Shown here one piece after another: positions 2,477-16,373 of a stretch of 37,718 nucleotides of DNA. This DNA comes from a virus. Made by a program: the position numbers and the translations under genes. The stretch lies in the IMG/VR virus record IMGVR_UViG_3300033146_000046, positions 1 through 37,718 of that record; one strand, 5' to 3'. The notes beneath the pieces are model-generated. The model had not been told where the DNA came from, searched no databases, and saw only the letters and a program-made list of their open reading frames with translations. Numbering within the stretch: the stretch's first letter is position 1; the number at the start of each line of letters is the position of its first letter.

Positions 2477-3220
2477 TTACAGATAATCAAGCACTTGCGA
2501 GTGATCTACATTATCAATTAATGTGTTTACAGCTTGCCTTTTTAGCTCTGAAACACGTACATAATTACTAACTCCATCGATATTTAATCTTGCTGCTATT
2601 TGTTTAGCTGAAAGTTTTTCATCGTCAAGTCCATAAGATAATCTAAGCACTTCATACTCTGTTTCGTTTAAGTATTTTTGCATTAAACTTTTTAGATAAA
2701 TATTCAAAAGTTCTTTGTTATAAGGATCACTTTTGTCTGGTATTTGCATTACCATATCCTCGTCATTAACATTAGCGTCGATAGATAAAAATATACTATT
2801 AAAAAACATAGCAACCATTTTTTTATCTTTATTGTTTCGAATCTTATTAATAACGTGTTCAGGTAGCCTCATAGTTCCTCGATGAGAATCTATTCTTCTA
2901 CGTATTCCGCCTCTAATTCTTTTACTAAAGAATGATTTCAGTGTTTTTTCTTGGTCATCAGATTTGTCTACTGTTTCCCAATCTAATCTATCTACAGCCT
3001 TTGTTAATGCCTCACTTCCACATTGTAATAAATCCATTATTGTTAAAACTCCGCAAGCTTGTTGACTTGTTGGAAATTTTCTAGCTAATGATTCTACTAG
3101 TGGTAAGAACCTTATTATAAGTTCTTTTCTCGTATATTCTTTATACGGTTTGTCTATAGGCATAGAAGATTTTAAATCTTCTTTGTACCTAATATAATTA
3201 GCTATGCTATACTTCTTCAT
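2477..3220 (-). CDS. RNA polymerase sigma-70-family factor
   Basis: This 247-residue protein has sigma region 2 at about residues 33-118 (FLPLVESLARKF, then GVLTIMDLLQCGSEALTKAV, then KSFFSKRIRGGIRRRID), a linker with RGTMRLPEHV (region 3-like), and a C-terminal region 4 helix-turn-helix at about 186-240 (YLNETEYEVLRLSYGL, LSAKQIAARLNI, VRVSELKRQAVNTL). Region 1.1 is missing, as in many phage and alternative sigma factors. It would redirect host RNA polymerase to phage promoters. It overlaps the upstream HTH gene by 14 bases. The six-copy promoter motif in this arm is a natural candidate target, although late genes are also possible; this is inference. Confidence 0.87.
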   Translation of the reverse strand: MKKYSIANYIRYKEDLKSSMPIDKPYKEYTRKELIIRFLPLVESLARKFPTSQQACGVLTIMDLLQCGSEALTKAVDRLDWETVDKSDDQEKTLKSFFSKRIRGGIRRRIDSHRGTMRLPEHVINKIRNNKDKKMVAMFFNSIFLSIDANVNDEDMVMQIPDKSDPYNKELLNIYLKSLMQKYLNETEYEVLRLSYGLDDEKLSAKQIAARLNIDGVSNYVRVSELKRQAVNTLIDNVDHSQVLDYL

Positions 3221-6350: not shown

Positions 6351-6444
6351 TGGACGTGGCAGGACTCGAACCTGCGTATAGTCAAACATATTTTTCAACA
6401 AGTTGATCTTTGCTTGTGACTATCAAAATCCCGATTTCACGCCC
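6351..6444 (-). ncRNA. tRNA-like element TLS1 (atypical tRNA)
   Basis: On the minus strand the 5' strand GGGCGTG (6438-6444) pairs with CACGTCC (6352-6358) in a seven-pair acceptor stem with one G-T, followed by discriminator A at 6351; CCA is not encoded. A T-arm GCAGG-TTCGAGT-CCTGC (6359-6375) is perfect. A three-pair D-like hairpin ATC/GAT closes on GGGATTTT. In place of a normal anticodon arm, a six-pair stem (6378-6383 with 6418-6423) encloses 34 bases with a second hairpin ACAAG/CTTGT and no standard seven-base loop. Total length is 94 bases. It may be an atypical or decayed long-arm tRNA, or a tRNA mimic recognised by RNase P/Z. It sits six bases after one gene and 16 before the next. 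Confidence 0.65.
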
Positions 6445-7676: not shown

Positions 7677-7917
7677 CTGATTCTTCTTTTAAAAATTCTG
7701 TACCATACATGATGTCTGCACCTGTAACATCAAAACTATACTTATCAGTAAATACGAGTATATCTCTAATATCATCTAGTTGTAATTGCCACCATCCATG
7801 TGAAGCCATTAATGTATACTTAAGCCTTTTAGCCGTACCGTGTTTATACGTATTTTGCCTAATTTTTTGTTTGTACACAGGTTTTAACTGTGACCACACG
7901 TTTTTAATTTTAGTCAT
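7669..7917 (-). CDS. Hypothetical protein, 82 aa (start revised)
   Basis: The longest frame begins at 7977, but that extension would place promoter motif P5 (7926-7961) inside coding sequence. I choose the methionine at 7917 (MTKIKNVWSQLKPVYKQKI), eight bases after the proximal block of P5. The product is basic at the start and acidic at the end (FLKEESDD), with a tryptophan-rich middle (HGWWQLQLDDIRDILVF, about 45-61). No domain is recognised. It is the first gene of the P5 unit. Confidence 0.65.
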   Translation of the reverse strand: MTKIKNVWSQLKPVYKQKIRQNTYKHGTAKRLKYTLMASHGWWQLQLDDIRDILVFTDKYSFDVTGADIMYGTEFLKEESDD

Positions 7918-7925
7918 AATTTTAT

Positions 7926-7961
7926 TTATATTATCGGTTAGTGTTAATATTTTGTTTGTAG
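7926..7961 (-). promoter_or_regulatory. Motif promoter P5 (leftward)
   Basis: Minus-strand reading: CTACAAA, 19 bases starting CAAAATA, then GATAATATAA, followed eight bases later by the ATG at 7917. The distal block has one change (C for T at its first base). Same spacing as the other five copies. Confidence 0.65.
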
Positions 7962-8000
7962 TATGACATTTTGTCATGGTTGCCTTTAGAGGCTTATATT

Positions 8001-8060
8001 TTAGACGTGCTCGTACGTTTTTGGGTCGAGTAACAATGCCACACTCGCATCCACGTCTAA
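8001..8060. ncRNA. Compact three-way-junction element
   Basis: A perfect nine-pair inverted repeat, TTAGACGTG at 8001-8009 and CACGTCTAA at 8052-8060, closes exactly around two hairpins: CTCG/CGAG (8010-8013 with 8027-8030) and ATGC/GCAT with loop CACACTC (8036-8050). Junction linkers are 0, 5 and 1 bases. The layout is too regular for chance in AT-rich DNA. It does not carry the conserved core of a hammerhead ribozyme. RNA fold, cruciform or protein-binding site are all possible; strand cannot be decided. Confidence 0.5.
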
Positions 8061-8126
8061 GGTGTAAGATTGCTTCATCACCATGGGATTCCCTGGTTGA
8101 TACTGTTATTCTTACTACCTATTTAG

Positions 8127-8216
8127 TAACTAGAAGAGGAATCGAACCTCTTTATCCGTCGATAGTCTTAGTCTTTCTGAGGTGTTACCCGTCCTTACTA
8201 ATTCTAGACCTAGTTA
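8127..8216 (-). ncRNA. tRNA-like element TLS2 (atypical tRNA)
   Basis: Minus-strand TAACTAGG (8209-8216) pairs with TCTAGTTA (8127-8134) to give an eight-pair acceptor stem with one G-T. It is joined directly to a perfect T-arm AGAGG-TTCGATT-CCTCT (8135-8151). A TATC-GACG-GATA hairpin next to the T-arm resembles a class II variable arm. A TTAGT/ACTAA stem enclosing 24 bases stands where the anticodon arm should be; no seven-base loop with a T33 is found. The eight-pair acceptor is unusual and occurs in selenocysteine tRNA, but the rest does not fit that tRNA. An atypical or decayed tRNA, or a tRNA mimic. Confidence 0.6.
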
Positions 8217-8304
8217 TCCAGTAATCTATTTTATTCAGTTATGTGACACAGCCTTGTTAAACGGGGTTATCCTTACGCGTCCTATTAACCTACTCGTATT
8301 TAGA

Positions 8305-8493
8305 TTACAAGTGCCATTCCTTTAATAGTTTAATGGCTGATTTCTTTATTTCATCAAAAGTTCTATCATTTAAGAATCCATCATCATAAGATATTATTCT
8401 TTCTAATTGCTTTTCTATTTGATTACAGAGTTCTAATGCTTCTCTATCCACATATTCCTCTTTCATAATTTCATATGCTTTTTTACTATCCAT
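8305..8493 (-). CDS. Small helical protein, 62 aa
   Basis: The product is charged and predicted mostly helical (MDSKKAYEIMKEEYVDREAL, then CNQIEKQLERIISYDDGFL), ending KLLKEWHL. It has one cysteine and no membrane segment. Its TAA lies in the 5' strand of an eight-pair stem that opens the structured non-coding stretch, so translation termination and RNA folding could influence each other. Function unknown. Confidence 0.6.
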   Translation of the reverse strand: MDSKKAYEIMKEEYVDREALELCNQIEKQLERIISYDDGFLNDRTFDEIKKSAIKLLKEWHL

Positions 8494-8893: not shown

Positions 8894-8910
8894 ATTTTAT
8901 TTATACTTTA

Positions 8911-8946
8911 TTATATTATCAACTGCTTGCAGTATTATATTTGTAA
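8911..8946 (-). promoter_or_regulatory. Motif promoter P1 (leftward)
   Basis: Minus-strand reading: TTACAAA, 19 bases starting TATAATA, then GATAATATAA. It lies entirely in the gap between two genes, 17 bases from the zinc-ribbon gene start. Confidence 0.68.
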
Positions 8947-9192
8947 TCACTTTGCTATAATTCTAAGTTGTTCTACACTATATTTTTTAATACTTGTTCG
9001 CCACATTTTATTATGTGTGAATTTATATTGCTGAGGAAAGCTCTTTTTTTGCCTCACAGTGCTTTTTTTGTATTCTTTATCAGTAAGTCCACTGCATTCA
9101 CCGTGAATTTTAATCATTTGTTGGTGATGATGCTTGCGAGCAAGTTTCTTTTGTTTACTATACTCGCATAATTCTTTCATGTTACTTACCAT
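8947..9192 (-). CDS. Small basic protein, 81 aa
   Basis: The protein is rich in lysine and histidine (KQKKLARKHHHQQMIKIHGE, about 13-32), followed by LTDKEYKKSTVRQKKSF. It probably binds nucleic acid. The start at 9192 overlaps the upstream gene by seven bases; the methionine at 9180 (MKELCEYSKQ) would avoid the overlap and is an equal candidate. The stop directly abuts promoter motif P1. No family recognised. Confidence 0.6.
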   Translation of the reverse strand: MVSNMKELCEYSKQKKLARKHHHQQMIKIHGECSGLTDKEYKKSTVRQKKSFPQQYKFTHNKMWRTSIKKYSVEQLRIIAK

Positions 9193-9401
9193 TTTAACGG
9201 AGCTTCGATAAAAGTTAAACCTTTGTAGTTAAACCAGTTGTCTTTACCAAACTTAAATTGTTCGATACCATCCTCGTCAATACCTTGTGATTTTTCTTTA
9301 AAGCCAAATGAATTAGGCAGGTCACCTACATGATAACCTTTGTACTCGATTCCGTTTAGATAAATCTTATGTTTATCTTTAGTAAATTTAATTGTTTTCA
9401 T
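9186..9401 (-). CDS. Small hypothetical protein, 71 aa
   Basis: The sequence alternates short beta-like runs with glycines and aromatics (KIYLNGIEYKGYHVGDLPNS, then FGKDNWFNYKGLTFIEAPLKW), suggesting a small beta fold. It begins 13 bases after the proximal block of promoter motif P2. No cysteine, signal or membrane segment. Function unknown. Confidence 0.65.
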   Translation of the reverse strand: MKTIKFTKDKHKIYLNGIEYKGYHVGDLPNSFGFKEKSQGIDEDGIEQFKFGKDNWFNYKGLTFIEAPLKW

Positions 9402-9414
9402 ATTTTAATCTTTA

Positions 9415-9450
9415 TTATATTATCAATTACTTGTTATATTATGTTTGTAA
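9415..9450 (-). promoter_or_regulatory. Motif promoter P2 (leftward)
   Basis: Minus-strand reading: TTACAAA, 19 bases starting CATAATA, then GATAATATAA. It overlaps the last codons and stop of the upstream 67-residue gene, and is 13 bases from the downstream ATG. Confidence 0.68.
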
Positions 9451-9626
9451 GCATGTGATTTAGCTATAGATTGTCTCCATTGCCACTCACTTTTGCGATA
9501 GTTGATGTCATTGCACCACTTTTTCCAACCTCTACTAGTATCATTCTCACCATACTTAGCTTCGAACTCTAGTACTTGTTTTAGCTTGTCTGCTATTTTA
9601 TTAGCATCATAGTCTTTAAATTGCAT
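9423..9626 (-). CDS. Small hypothetical protein, 67 aa
   Basis: The product has a helical start (KIADKLKQVLEFEAKYGEND) and a tryptophan-rich basic half (RGWKKWCNDINYRKSEWQWR). Its last nine codons are shared with promoter motif P2, so the C-terminus SHAYKHNITSN is constrained by that site. No domain is recognised; compact, basic, probably cytoplasmic. Confidence 0.6.
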   Translation of the reverse strand: MQFKDYDANKIADKLKQVLEFEAKYGENDTSRGWKKWCNDINYRKSEWQWRQSIAKSHAYKHNITSN

Positions 9627-10204: not shown

Positions 10205-10225
10205 AATTTAGTTTTAAATATTAGT

Positions 10226-10269
10226 TGACTGAGCGGGTTTCGAACCCACTTACGTATCTATACCAGTCG
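10226..10269 (-). ncRNA. tRNA-like mini-element TLS3
   Basis: On the minus strand CGACTGG (10263-10269) pairs with TCAGTCA (10226-10232) over six positions (one G-T; the first pair is a mismatch). A perfect-length T-arm GTGGG-TTCGAAA-CCCGC (10233-10249, one T-G pair) follows. Only 13 bases (TATAGATACGTAA) lie between, so D and anticodon arms are absent. It begins 21 bases after one gene stop and ends 21 bases before the next ATG. It looks like a minimal acceptor/T-arm mimic; the remnant of a decayed tRNA is the alternative. Confidence 0.52.
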
Positions 10270-11370: not shown

Positions 11371-13212
11371 ATGGCAATAATATACTCATACCCTACCTCT
11401 ACAGTAAAAGGTACCGATAGAATAATCGCATCGGATATGACTGTGACAGGTAATCCAACAATAAACATAAATGTTAACGGCATTGCTGACTATATAATAG
11501 CTCTGCTAGGATTTGGTAGCGGTACTCCTGGTACTATGCCAGTGTGGGTTACTAGTCAACAACTAGGAGACTCATATGTAAGACAAGTAGCAACACCAAC
11601 TCCATTGACAATACACACAGAGAGTGCTGAGTTCGTTGCTGGTAAAACATTGACTGTAGATAGCTCGTTTATTGTAAACGGAGCAGAAGTACATAACAAC
11701 TTAGAATCCCACAACGGGCAAGTTACATTTAACAACCAAGTTGATTTTGGTGATTTAACTACAATTAATATAAATAGCGTTAATGCTTATTCTAAATTAA
11801 GACTTTATGGAGAATTAATTGATTCTGGCGGACTTGGATCTCCAGGTGGTTTAGGTCAAATACTATCCTCTACCGTTACAGGTGTTGAATGGATAGATGG
11901 TTTACCTTCTGGTATAGAATACAGAGGAACTTGGGACGCAAATGCTAATACATCTGTTGATGGACCTTTAGCATCAGGAGTTGGAACACAAGGATACTAT
12001 TATATAGTAGATGTACCAGGAACAACTAACTTAGATGGATTTAATTCATGGCAAGTAGGTGATTGGTGTATATTCTCTAGCGCTAACACTTGGCAAGAAA
12101 TAGATAACTCAGGTATATTCTCAGGTGCTGGTACTCCAAATACAATGACTAAATGGACAGGACCTAGCGCATTAGGTGATTCTCAAACAACTGATGATGG
12201 TACTAATATAAATATGACTGCATTAGGCAATCTAACTATAAATGGTACTTCTCTTGATATAAACGCTGGTGGTGGTGGAATAAGAAGTTTAGCTCCACAT
12301 ACATTTACTAGCATCGTAAATTTACAAAGTCAAACAACTATTACCGGAGCAGTGACCGATGCTTTTGTTAGCTCAGGTGCAGCTGGTCAAGTATTATCTT
12401 CAACTGGTGCAGGACAAGTACAATGGATAAACGGTTCAGCAATAGCTGGAGGTTTAAGTGGTAGTGGTACTTTAAATAAAGTTGCTAAATGGACACCAAC
12501 TGGTATAGCACTAGGAGATAGTTCAATAACAGACGATGCAAATACAGTTACAATTTCTCCAGTTGTAGAAACCAATATAACATCTAACGCTAATTTAACT
12601 GGGGTTAGTAATGTAATGGGAACAGCAGGTGGTACTAATAGATTCGATAGCGTAAGTGATTTCCAAGACGATGTTAAACTTTCTAGCGCTTTAGTAGATA
12701 GCTTTGGATCTTCAGGTACTAGTGGTCAAGTGTTATCAAGCAACGGTGCTCAAACATTATGGGTTAGTCCTTTGGCTGGAACAGATGGATCACAGCAAAT
12801 AACAATTACAGTAGATCCAGCTGAAATGTCAACATTATCAACCGTGCCTAAAGTTTGTATACCAGCTCAAGGTGTAGGAACAGTTATAGAAATATTAAGT
12901 GTAGCCTATAAATATGATTACGCAACAGTTGTATATGATTATACAGGTGACTTAGTAGTATGTCCAGCAGGTTTTGTGGGTAATACAGATACTTATCAAT
13001 CAGTATTTAAACAAGGATTTGTAAATGGTGTTGGAGACGTTTACCAAGGAAACGAAAGTGGTGCAGGTGTATTTTTAGGTCACTTACTACAAGACAATGT
13101 GGCTATGGTATTTACTACGCCTGGAATAAATCCAACACAGGGTGATGGAAATATGAGATTAAACTTAAGATATAGAGTACTAGATATTTCATCTTGGTTA
13201 CCTATAATATAA
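11371..13212 (+). CDS. Tail-fibre-like structural protein, 613 aa
   Basis: This glycine-, threonine- and serine-rich protein has a repeated module built of GQxLSS followed about ten residues later by W (near residues 167, 338 and 449), and another, GTxxxxxKW..xxALGDSxxTDD (near 255 and 363). Such repeats are typical of phage fibres made of beta-helical or beta-prism trimers. The last 140 residues (from about 470) are different and probably form the receptor-facing or knob domain. The 766-residue protein further right shares the same modules (GDILSSLG, GEVLSSTATG), so the two fibres are related. No S74 cleavage domain is seen here. Confidence 0.72.
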   Translation: MAIIYSYPTSTVKGTDRIIASDMTVTGNPTININVNGIADYIIALLGFGSGTPGTMPVWVTSQQLGDSYVRQVATPTPLTIHTESAEFVAGKTLTVDSSFIVNGAEVHNNLESHNGQVTFNNQVDFGDLTTININSVNAYSKLRLYGELIDSGGLGSPGGLGQILSSTVTGVEWIDGLPSGIEYRGTWDANANTSVDGPLASGVGTQGYYYIVDVPGTTNLDGFNSWQVGDWCIFSSANTWQEIDNSGIFSGAGTPNTMTKWTGPSALGDSQTTDDGTNINMTALGNLTINGTSLDINAGGGGIRSLAPHTFTSIVNLQSQTTITGAVTDAFVSSGAAGQVLSSTGAGQVQWINGSAIAGGLSGSGTLNKVAKWTPTGIALGDSSITDDANTVTISPVVETNITSNANLTGVSNVMGTAGGTNRFDSVSDFQDDVKLSSALVDSFGSSGTSGQVLSSNGAQTLWVSPLAGTDGSQQITITVDPAEMSTLSTVPKVCIPAQGVGTVIEILSVAYKYDYATVVYDYTGDLVVCPAGFVGNTDTYQSVFKQGFVNGVGDVYQGNESGAGVFLGHLLQDNVAMVFTTPGINPTQGDGNMRLNLRYRVLDISSWLPII

Positions 13213-14819: not shown

Positions 14820-16373
14820 ATGACAGAAAAACTTGTTAAAAATCTTAACTTTGGGAATAAAGCTCAGGATAAGATATTAAATGGAATAGATAAACTCACA
14901 AAAGCTGTTAGCTCCACACTTGGGGCTAACGGTAAGTGCGTTATCTTAGAAGACAACTTAGGTAAACCTACTATAACAAAAGATGGTATTACAGTAGCAG
15001 AAAGCGTTACACTATTAGATCCAGTTGAAAATATGGGTGCTATGCTTATAAAAGAAGCAGCACGTAAAACCGTAAAAGAAGCTGGTGATGGTACAACAAC
15101 CGCAACAGTATTAGCGCATTCAATTTTACATTTAGCTAAAGAGCATAATATTAACAATGTAAGATTTTTGAAAGAAGGTATTGATTCAGCTGTAACCAAA
15201 ACAATAAAATACTTAGATGACATAAGTATACCTGTTGTAGATGATATGGTAGAACAAGTAGCAACTATCTCAGCTAATAATGATAAAGAGTTGGGTGACA
15301 AAATTTCTAAAGCTTTTTTAGCGGTAGGTAAAACAGGTGTAGTTGCTATGGAAGAATCTGATACTGCAGAGACATATGTTGAAATTGTAGATGGTATACA
15401 GTATGATAGAGGATTAAAAAACATGAGTTTTGTTACTGATCAAGCAAGTAAGAAAGCAGAGCTTAATAAACCTTTAGTATTAATTGTAGAATCTAAAATA
15501 GAAAACATACGTAAAATACAATCAGTACTAGAGCATGTCATAAAAACTAGTAGAGCCTTATTAATAATTGGTGATGCTGACACTAAAGTTTTAGCGGCGT
15601 TAGCAATGAATAAAATAAAAGGCAATATAAAAATAAATATAATTGATGCTCCTAATTTTGGAGTTACTAAAAAACAAGTATTAAATGATATTGCTATGAT
15701 GACTGGAGCAACAGTTATTAATGAGCATTTAGGTGATGATTTAGATTTAATCCAACCTGAACATTTAGGAGAATGTGTTAAATCAGTAACTACAGAATAT
15801 GAAACCATTATACAGGTCGCAGGTGTTTCCCCACAAGTAGAACATGTTATTGAACAAGTTAAGAAAGATATACTAAAAGAAACTAAACCCGGTCCAATAA
15901 CAAGACTTGAAAAAAGATTAGCGTTGTTATCAGCTAAAATAGCTAATGTAAAAGTAGGCGCTAATTCTGATGTAGAATTAAAAGAAAAGAAAGATAGAGT
16001 TGAAGATGCTGTGTGTGCTACAAAAGCCGCGATAAAAGAAGGTATAGTTCCCGGAGGAGGTATAGCCTTACTTAATGCTGCGTTAAAAATAAAAGCTGCT
16101 AACAAAGCAGAAGAAGTTTTATTTGACGCGATTAAATCTCCATTCAATGTTATTCTAAGGAATGCTGGTATTGAACCTAATACCGACTTAAAAGAAGGAG
16201 ATGGTATAAACGTGGTTACAGGAAATATGGTAAATATGATTGATAGTGGTATAATTGATCCACTGTTAGTTACAAAAAGCGCTTTAAAAAACGCGGCTTC
16301 TGTAGCTACCACTATTTTATCAACTGATTGTGTAATTAATAACATTAGAATACATGAAGGCGATAGGAGATAA
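14820..16373 (+). CDS. groL: GroEL-type chaperonin (Cpn60)
   Basis: The 517-residue protein aligns with GroEL along its length. The ATP site is intact: TKDG with D55 (E. coli D52), GDGTTTAT with D90 (E. coli D87), and RVEDA with the catalytic aspartate (E. coli D398), then PGGGIAL. The sequence between about residues 190 and 370 corresponds to the apical domain. It is shorter than E. coli GroEL (548 aa) mainly because the GGM-rich tail is missing; it ends IHEGDRR. With the overlapping GroES gene it would form a phage-encoded folding chamber, probably for capsid or fibre proteins. Codon use is AT-rich like its neighbours, so if captured from a host it has been resident for long. Confidence 0.95.
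   Translation: MTEKLVKNLNFGNKAQDKILNGIDKLTKAVSSTLGANGKCVILEDNLGKPTITKDGITVAESVTLLDPVENMGAMLIKEAARKTVKEAGDGTTTATVLAHSILHLAKEHNINNVRFLKEGIDSAVTKTIKYLDDISIPVVDDMVEQVATISANNDKELGDKISKAFLAVGKTGVVAMEESDTAETYVEIVDGIQYDRGLKNMSFVTDQASKKAELNKPLVLIVESKIENIRKIQSVLEHVIKTSRALLIIGDADTKVLAALAMNKIKGNIKINIIDAPNFGVTKKQVLNDIAMMTGATVINEHLGDDLDLIQPEHLGECVKSVTTEYETIIQVAGVSPQVEHVIEQVKKDILKETKPGPITRLEKRLALLSAKIANVKVGANSDVELKEKKDRVEDAVCATKAAIKEGIVPGGGIALLNAALKIKAANKAEEVLFDAIKSPFNVILRNAGIEPNTDLKEGDGINVVTGNMVNMIDSGIIDPLLVTKSALKNAASVATTILSTDCVINNIRIHEGDRR

Follow-up and report, generated by a model that had tools for sequence, protein, structure and literature searches.

Comparative evidence for an array of minus-strand RNA modules, one of them tRNA-like, with exchangeable inner helices in a marine podophage-like virus

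The stretch of DNA analyzed here (the window) is a 37.7-kb virus record of a podophage-like group, and its source is a marine phage. The portal protein it encodes shares 40-50% identity with the portals of Elemovirus (Flavobacterium phages) and of one uncultured podovirus, with Cellulophaga phages also among the matches, and many uncultured viral contigs encode a portal ~64-90% identical to that of the window. Its relatives infect marine Bacteroidota, and the host is assigned provisionally. The locus of interest is a minus-strand array (8308 to 8001), encoded on the same strand as the small genes that flank it: on one side lies the stop codon of the gene at 8305-8493(-), on the other what is probably the start of the following gene. 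Judged by the start in relatives, this downstream gene probably begins at 7917 rather than 7977, which would make the non-coding stretch about 390 bases long. A plus-strand open reading frame of 82 codons (7976-8224) was rejected as a gene, because sequence change there follows helices and because inserts of differing length are swapped.

Promoter-like motifs stand on both sides of the array. A probable promoter element, GATAATATAATAAA, is found at 8907-8920(-), ahead of the operon of small genes whose end is formed by the array; it is one of four exact minus-strand matches within 8.9-10.9 kb, and with up to three mismatches the motif is matched 57 times, against 30 expected. In relatives the motif likewise precedes the homologous genes. 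A probable promoter of the next gene, with two mismatches to this motif, lies at 7922-7935(-), just 3' of the array, and would bound the array transcript. The arrays of the relatives L090, L091 and L141 are followed by a similar motif at the same position, and the layout of genes, array and promoter motifs is the same in relatives. Between the array and the next promoter, an inverted repeat, ATGACAAAATGTCAT (7963-7977), is kept in L090, L091 and L141 and is a candidate operator or transcription end. Elsewhere in the window, the protein encoded at 2477-3220(-) has weak matches to sigma-70 region 2 and region 4 and is possibly the sigma factor for the GATAATATAATAAA promoters; the phage also encodes a GroEL-like chaperonin (14820-16373(+); PHROG 5725, E=1e-133).

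The array can be divided into four modules, in the order A-B-E-I: A (8308-8221), B (8215-8127), E (8115-8064) and I (8060-8001). The frames of all four are found again in related marine phages, where base changes are compensatory, and on this comparative evidence the region encodes a series of independently folding minus-strand RNA modules. A sequence-only reading had proposed at least four stems in this region, and all four are found where it had placed them, one per module: 8221-8228/8301-8308 is the outer helix (P1) of module A; the element it had called TLS2 is module B; 8080-8097 is a hairpin nested within module E; and 8001-8009/8052-8060 is P1 of module I. Also as that reading had it, the 5' strand of the first stem overlaps the stop codon (TAA, 8305-8307) of the gene at 8305-8493(-), and the G+C content of the region (0.398) is higher than in the flanks (0.33 and 0.29). 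Poor conservation of the pairs in relatives, or a match to ordinary tRNAs, would have counted against it; the pairs are kept with compensatory changes, and no ordinary tRNA found by ARAGORN or at the Rfam gathering level accounts for the stems. Of its two interpretations, a composite RNA is borne out, with the tRNA-like module B between A and E, whereas a phage regulatory RNA is a possible reading only, and nothing points to cis-regulation.

The strand of the RNA, absent from that reading, is added here. The RNA corresponds to the minus strand of the window, because G-U pairs exceed A-C in the inner helix of module A and because the T-loop consensus can be read on that strand only. The minus-strand fold beats shuffled sequences (z -3.2, with 1 of 100 shuffles as good), and that of the plus strand is less marked (z -2.0). 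Folded alone as single sequences, module I gives z -2.9, and modules A (z -0.8) and B (z -0.6) are not separable from shuffles; the evidence for A and B is thus comparative, and it is there that it is strong.

Module A (8221-8308, minus strand) consists of the outer helix P1 (8301-8308/8221-8228); a conserved internal loop made of ACGAGTAGGTTAATAG (8282-8297) and ACATAACTGAAT (8233-8244), paired via GGTTA/TAACT; and a cargo (8245-8281) closed by GACGCG/TGTGTC. Scanning IMG/VR with the 5' loop strand gave 92 matches, a few of them by chance, and 80 distinct copies with both loop strands contain 67 different interiors. The GSTTA/TAAST helix has C-G in 62 copies and G-C in 18, without exception. 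In the inner helix, 87% of cells are paired, compared to 51% (maximum 56%) in shuffled data, and G-U accounts for 6.5% of cells against 0.9% for A-C. In an alignment of 37 sequences, 91.4% of cells are paired, compared to 72% after shuffling and 24-42% with the partner strand shifted along; cells with double changes number 95, against 28 expected; and RNAalifold, unprompted, returns the same helices. The window copy has the GSTTA/TAAST helix, both conserved loop strands and complementary inner and outer helices.

Module B (8127-8215, minus strand) is a tRNA-like scaffold. Its acceptor stem AACTAGG/TCTAGTT is followed by A73 (8127) and, beyond the module, by a CTAA trailer, and its T-arm AGAGG-TTCGATT-CCTCT (8135-8151) has a perfect T-loop that fits the TTCGANY consensus. 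The interior contains a GTC/GAC helix and then a cargo helix that replaces the anticodon arm. A hairpin of four base pairs, TATC-GACG-GATA (8153-8164, loop GACG), covaries in relatives, where it appears as UACU/AGUA, UACC/GGUA and UAUC/GAUA. A covariance model built from 22 relatives, with the window and its two closest homologues excluded, recovers the copy in the window at 75 bits (E=1e-16, E-values from our own models being rough) and with every model pair formed, those of the acceptor and T-arm included. Module B occurs at 35 sites; in L141 one acceptor pair is altered on both sides. ARAGORN finds no tRNA in the window, and the Rfam tRNA model has no match there at gathering. Module B has no anticodon arm, its interior being a variable helix, and the D-arm and anticodon arm by which a tRNA is recognized are not both present; by these features of its sequence, it is tRNA-like and not a tRNA. 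It also differs from tmRNA, for it has C3-G70 with A73, and so lacks G3-U70, and the Rfam tmRNA model does not match it.

Module definitions other than those of A, B and class H (see below) are sequence patterns with few copies, and modules E and I are each known from three relatives. Module E (8064-8115, minus strand) has P1 GTAAGA/TCTTAC, a conserved loop (ATAACAGTAT ... TGAAGCAA) and a variable inner hairpin, which in the window is the cargo hairpin F, ACCAGGGAATCCCATGGT (8080-8097). The E frame is present in L094, L241 and L141, so that four copies hold three different inner hairpins, and P1 in L241 and L141 is GTAATA/TATTAC, a G-C to T-A change on both sides. A looser E pattern matched mostly unrelated coding sequence, and only these three are real relatives. 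Module I (8001-8060, minus strand) has P1 TTAGACGTG/CACGTCTAA and the conserved elements GTTACTCGACC ... CGTACGAGC. It is found in L241, L141 and L094, in the last of which P1 reads ATAGGTGTG/CACACCTAA, with two compensatory double changes.

Our analysis reveals a further tRNA-like RNA in the window, at 6351-6444(-), belonging to a class (class H) that resembles the tRNA-like domain of tmRNA without the message. It has the acceptor GGGCGTG/CACGTCC with G3-U70 and A73, a GG-containing loop, and a 62-nt interior with a 7-bp closing helix. The Rfam tmRNA model spans it end to end with 28.3 bits (E=3.2e-10 in a 151-base search), compared to a gathering score of 47, and it goes unannotated in tRNA searches and in Rfam gathering searches. 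Class H comprises 53 distinct domains across all loci, with 52 different interiors; G3-U70 is present in 50 of the 53, A73 in 52 and a following CTAA in 44, and pair 4-69 varies. The L130 copy reaches 53.1 bits against RF00023, above the gathering score, with ~290 model positions (the message region) absent. Class H and tmRNA (ssrA, RF00023) are alike in the 7-bp acceptor, G3-U70, A73, the T-arm and an armless GG loop. In contrast to tmRNA, however, class H has neither message (the proteolysis tag) nor pseudoknots, and holds an exchangeable helix of 41-145 nt instead; an LAA-stop tag was found in none of 49 interiors in this size range. Complete phage-encoded tmRNAs are known in 402 phages (PMC9004378); these too are phage copies of the tRNA-like domain, but are one- or two-piece genes, whereas class H lacks the message. 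The third-pair G-U is completely conserved in tmRNA and is a potent determinant for alanyl-tRNA synthetase (AlaRS) (PMC3985003). From G3-U70 and A73, we predict that class H RNAs are charged with alanine, and alanyl-tRNA synthetase, EF-Tu or SmpB are probable partners of theirs as well.

Still smaller forms retain only the acceptor and T-arm. A minimal tRNA-like RNA of 45 nt (10225-10269(-)) consists of the acceptor CGACTGG/TCAGTCA, which has a C1-A72 mismatch, a 13-nt linker, a T-arm and an A, followed by CTAA; its match to the B covariance model is weak (E=0.19, again a rough value). A different minimal tRNA-like RNA occupies the same gene boundary in L141, at about 11763-11808(-). In all, 15 such forms were found, some four of which are chance-like, as four were also found in shuffled loci. 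A further 45-nt class, with the acceptor TGACATA/TATGTCA, the 9-nt linker ATGGTTNAT and covarying acceptor pairs, occurs in L142, L117 and L172.

That the frames are fixed and the inserts exchanged is apparent only through the relatives, and was missed by the sequence-only reading. The closest homologous array, in L141, has the same order A-B-E-I with near-identical frames and an identical module I, and the inserts of A, B and E are unrelated to those of the window. In L241, E-I is at one site and A-X-B at another, about 1.3-1.4 kb apart; its modules are 96% identical to those of the window, compared to 76-86% for the neighboring genes, and the break falls exactly between B and E. L091, whose portal is 90% identical to that of the window, shares with it only the frame of A, into which a mini tRNA-like element is inserted; its remaining modules differ, and it has a tRNA-Met. 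Inserts are also reused across frames, and the following counts, being from strict patterns, are lower bounds: motif C occurs in A (9), N (3), H (1) and free (8); motif K in H (3), A (1) or elsewhere; and motif L in A (3 loci) and H (4). Hairpin F recurs within class H domains of L090 and L111, and L098, L110 and L129 have it in other contexts. Module order is shuffled among arrays, and modules stand at separate sites. These comparisons (unrelated inserts in the same frames of L141, the 67 interiors among 80 copies of A, the split sites of L241, and the reuse of inserts across frames) show that A, B and E of the window array, together with class H, are scaffolds holding a freely exchangeable inner helix, the scaffold being either an outer helix with a conserved loop or an acceptor stem with a T-arm. 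Fast exchange of cargo would also be expected under neutral recombination between hairpins. An intact tRNA-Met (CAT), which looks like a bacterial initiator tRNA, often ends the arrays of relatives (L091 4925-4997, L094, L096, L097, L098 and L141 8432-8505).

How these modules may function can be outlined as follows. The array would be the last part of an early operon's transcript, initiated at the promoter near 8907-8920, and host RNase P and RNase Z would cut at the tRNA-like ends (acceptor, T-arm, A73 and CTAA); the CTAA trailer is common to many of the relatives' true tRNA-Met genes. The cuts would yield short stable RNAs in which the tRNA-like part is a protective handle. Less surely, the cargo helices may be ligands or decoys for host proteins, whether translation factors or proteins of defence or RNA turnover, and an arms race may lie behind the fast exchange of these helices. 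Modules A, E and I lack a tRNA-type end, so that release by tRNA enzymes cannot account for every module. Taken as a whole, we consider it slightly better than an even chance that the scaffold-cargo modules give rise to tRNA-ended stable RNAs that are ligands or decoys for host factors. A fuller proposal, that this is a combinatorial RNA system in which scaffolds such as stripped-down tRNAs and message-less tmRNAs present structured cargo that is shuffled among frames, sites and phages and acts as a rapidly evolving set of decoys or ligands against host factors, is put forward more tentatively, at somewhat below even chances.

Several other readings were weighed against this one. The RNAs could be directed at the ribosome and act on translation itself, for instance as competitors of host tmRNA for SmpB, AlaRS or EF-Tu, with the cargo only tuning stability. 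The AlaRS determinant, the tmRNA-like loop and the missing tag of class H would suit such a role, as would the frequent inclusion of a tRNA-Met gene in the arrays; however, discrete conserved cargo motifs reused across frames, and modules A, E and I, would be left unexplained, and we regard this reading as unlikely. Much less probable is that the modules work at the DNA level through their palindromes, as mobile hairpins or recombination sites, any RNA being incidental. Modules do move as units, with breaks at their edges and cargo exchanged, but the bias of G-U over A-C, a T-loop, A73 and trailer that make sense only as RNA, and a strand shared with the flanking genes argue against it.

Equally hard to credit is a large ornate RNA of the GOLLD/ROOL type, in which a single assembled structure varies in its peripheral helices. 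GOLLD and ROOL are likewise large structured phage RNAs near tRNA islands, of unknown function (PMC12286853), but they have a single conserved architecture and the modules described here are separable, standing at separate sites and in shuffled order, which is unlike one fixed fold. Sequence similarity to them is also absent, and the Rfam models of GOLLD, ROOL and OLE gave no match even at permissive E-values, in the window region or in the arrays of L131, L130, L098 and L141. Cis-acting 3' untranslated or attenuator elements governing the neighboring small genes would fit the position of the array, which has a stop codon on one side and the following promoter motif on the other; array composition nevertheless changes while the neighbor genes stay, and tRNA-type ends would have no explanation, making this highly improbable. 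The least probable reading is a decaying phage tRNA cluster, whose old tRNA genes have lost arms and are drifting: an intact tRNA-Met often ends the arrays and several modules retain just acceptor and T-arm, but the covariation (compensatory changes with invariant loops in A) already largely refutes decay, nearly every class H domain retains G3-U70 and A73 whereas pair 4-69 varies, A, E and I are unlike tRNAs, and decay would not keep frames while replacing their insides.

In searches for known systems, no Rfam family was found at gathering in the whole window; permissive matches in the region to SNORD72 (E=1.4) and Plastid-ycf2 (E=2.7) were set aside as chance. DNA similarity to cultured phages consists only of scattered matches of ~30-60 bases, and the array was not found among them. 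Elemovirus, a cultured relative (L245, NC_055853.1), has a gene-free stretch of ~300 bases by its tRNA-Met (9192-9507(-)), in which none of the known modules was recognized and which folds like shuffled sequence. The T4 species 1 and 2 RNAs are small stable phage RNAs, encoded with tRNA genes and of unknown function. They are two fixed species, whereas the arrays described here have exchangeable inserts and are shuffled; the two are set apart by description. In the laboratory 'tRNA scaffold', an RNA of interest is put in the anticodon arm and the tRNA ends give processing and stability (PMC3753655). The tRNA-ended cargo RNAs may be a natural counterpart of this man-made device: the principle is the same, although the natural versions use tmRNA-like or unrelated scaffolds.

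Arrays of this kind were not found in the open-access papers searched, and subscription literature lay outside the search, so that their novelty is to be read as 'not found' rather than as proved. Frames that are kept while their contents are swapped or nested are a modularity known for proteins, and for small RNAs we found no description of it. The modules would make up a new class of phage gene products open to testing, and may be a reservoir of RNA factors that act against the host. In addition, natural message-less tmRNAs offer a way to study the tRNA-like domain on its own, and the acceptor/T-arm piece could be a general-purpose handle for expressing structured RNA.

About 80 or more uncultured viral contigs carry the system, and annotation by ARAGORN or by Rfam gathering scores would miss it. 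Among genome contigs, a first scan for module A with limited interior length gave no match, and a second gave five, with both halves of A in L190 only. This contig (JABSQH010000086.1, 6.7 kb), assigned by binning to an Ilumatobacteraceae genome, contains both module A and module B, and is probably a misbinned phage contig.
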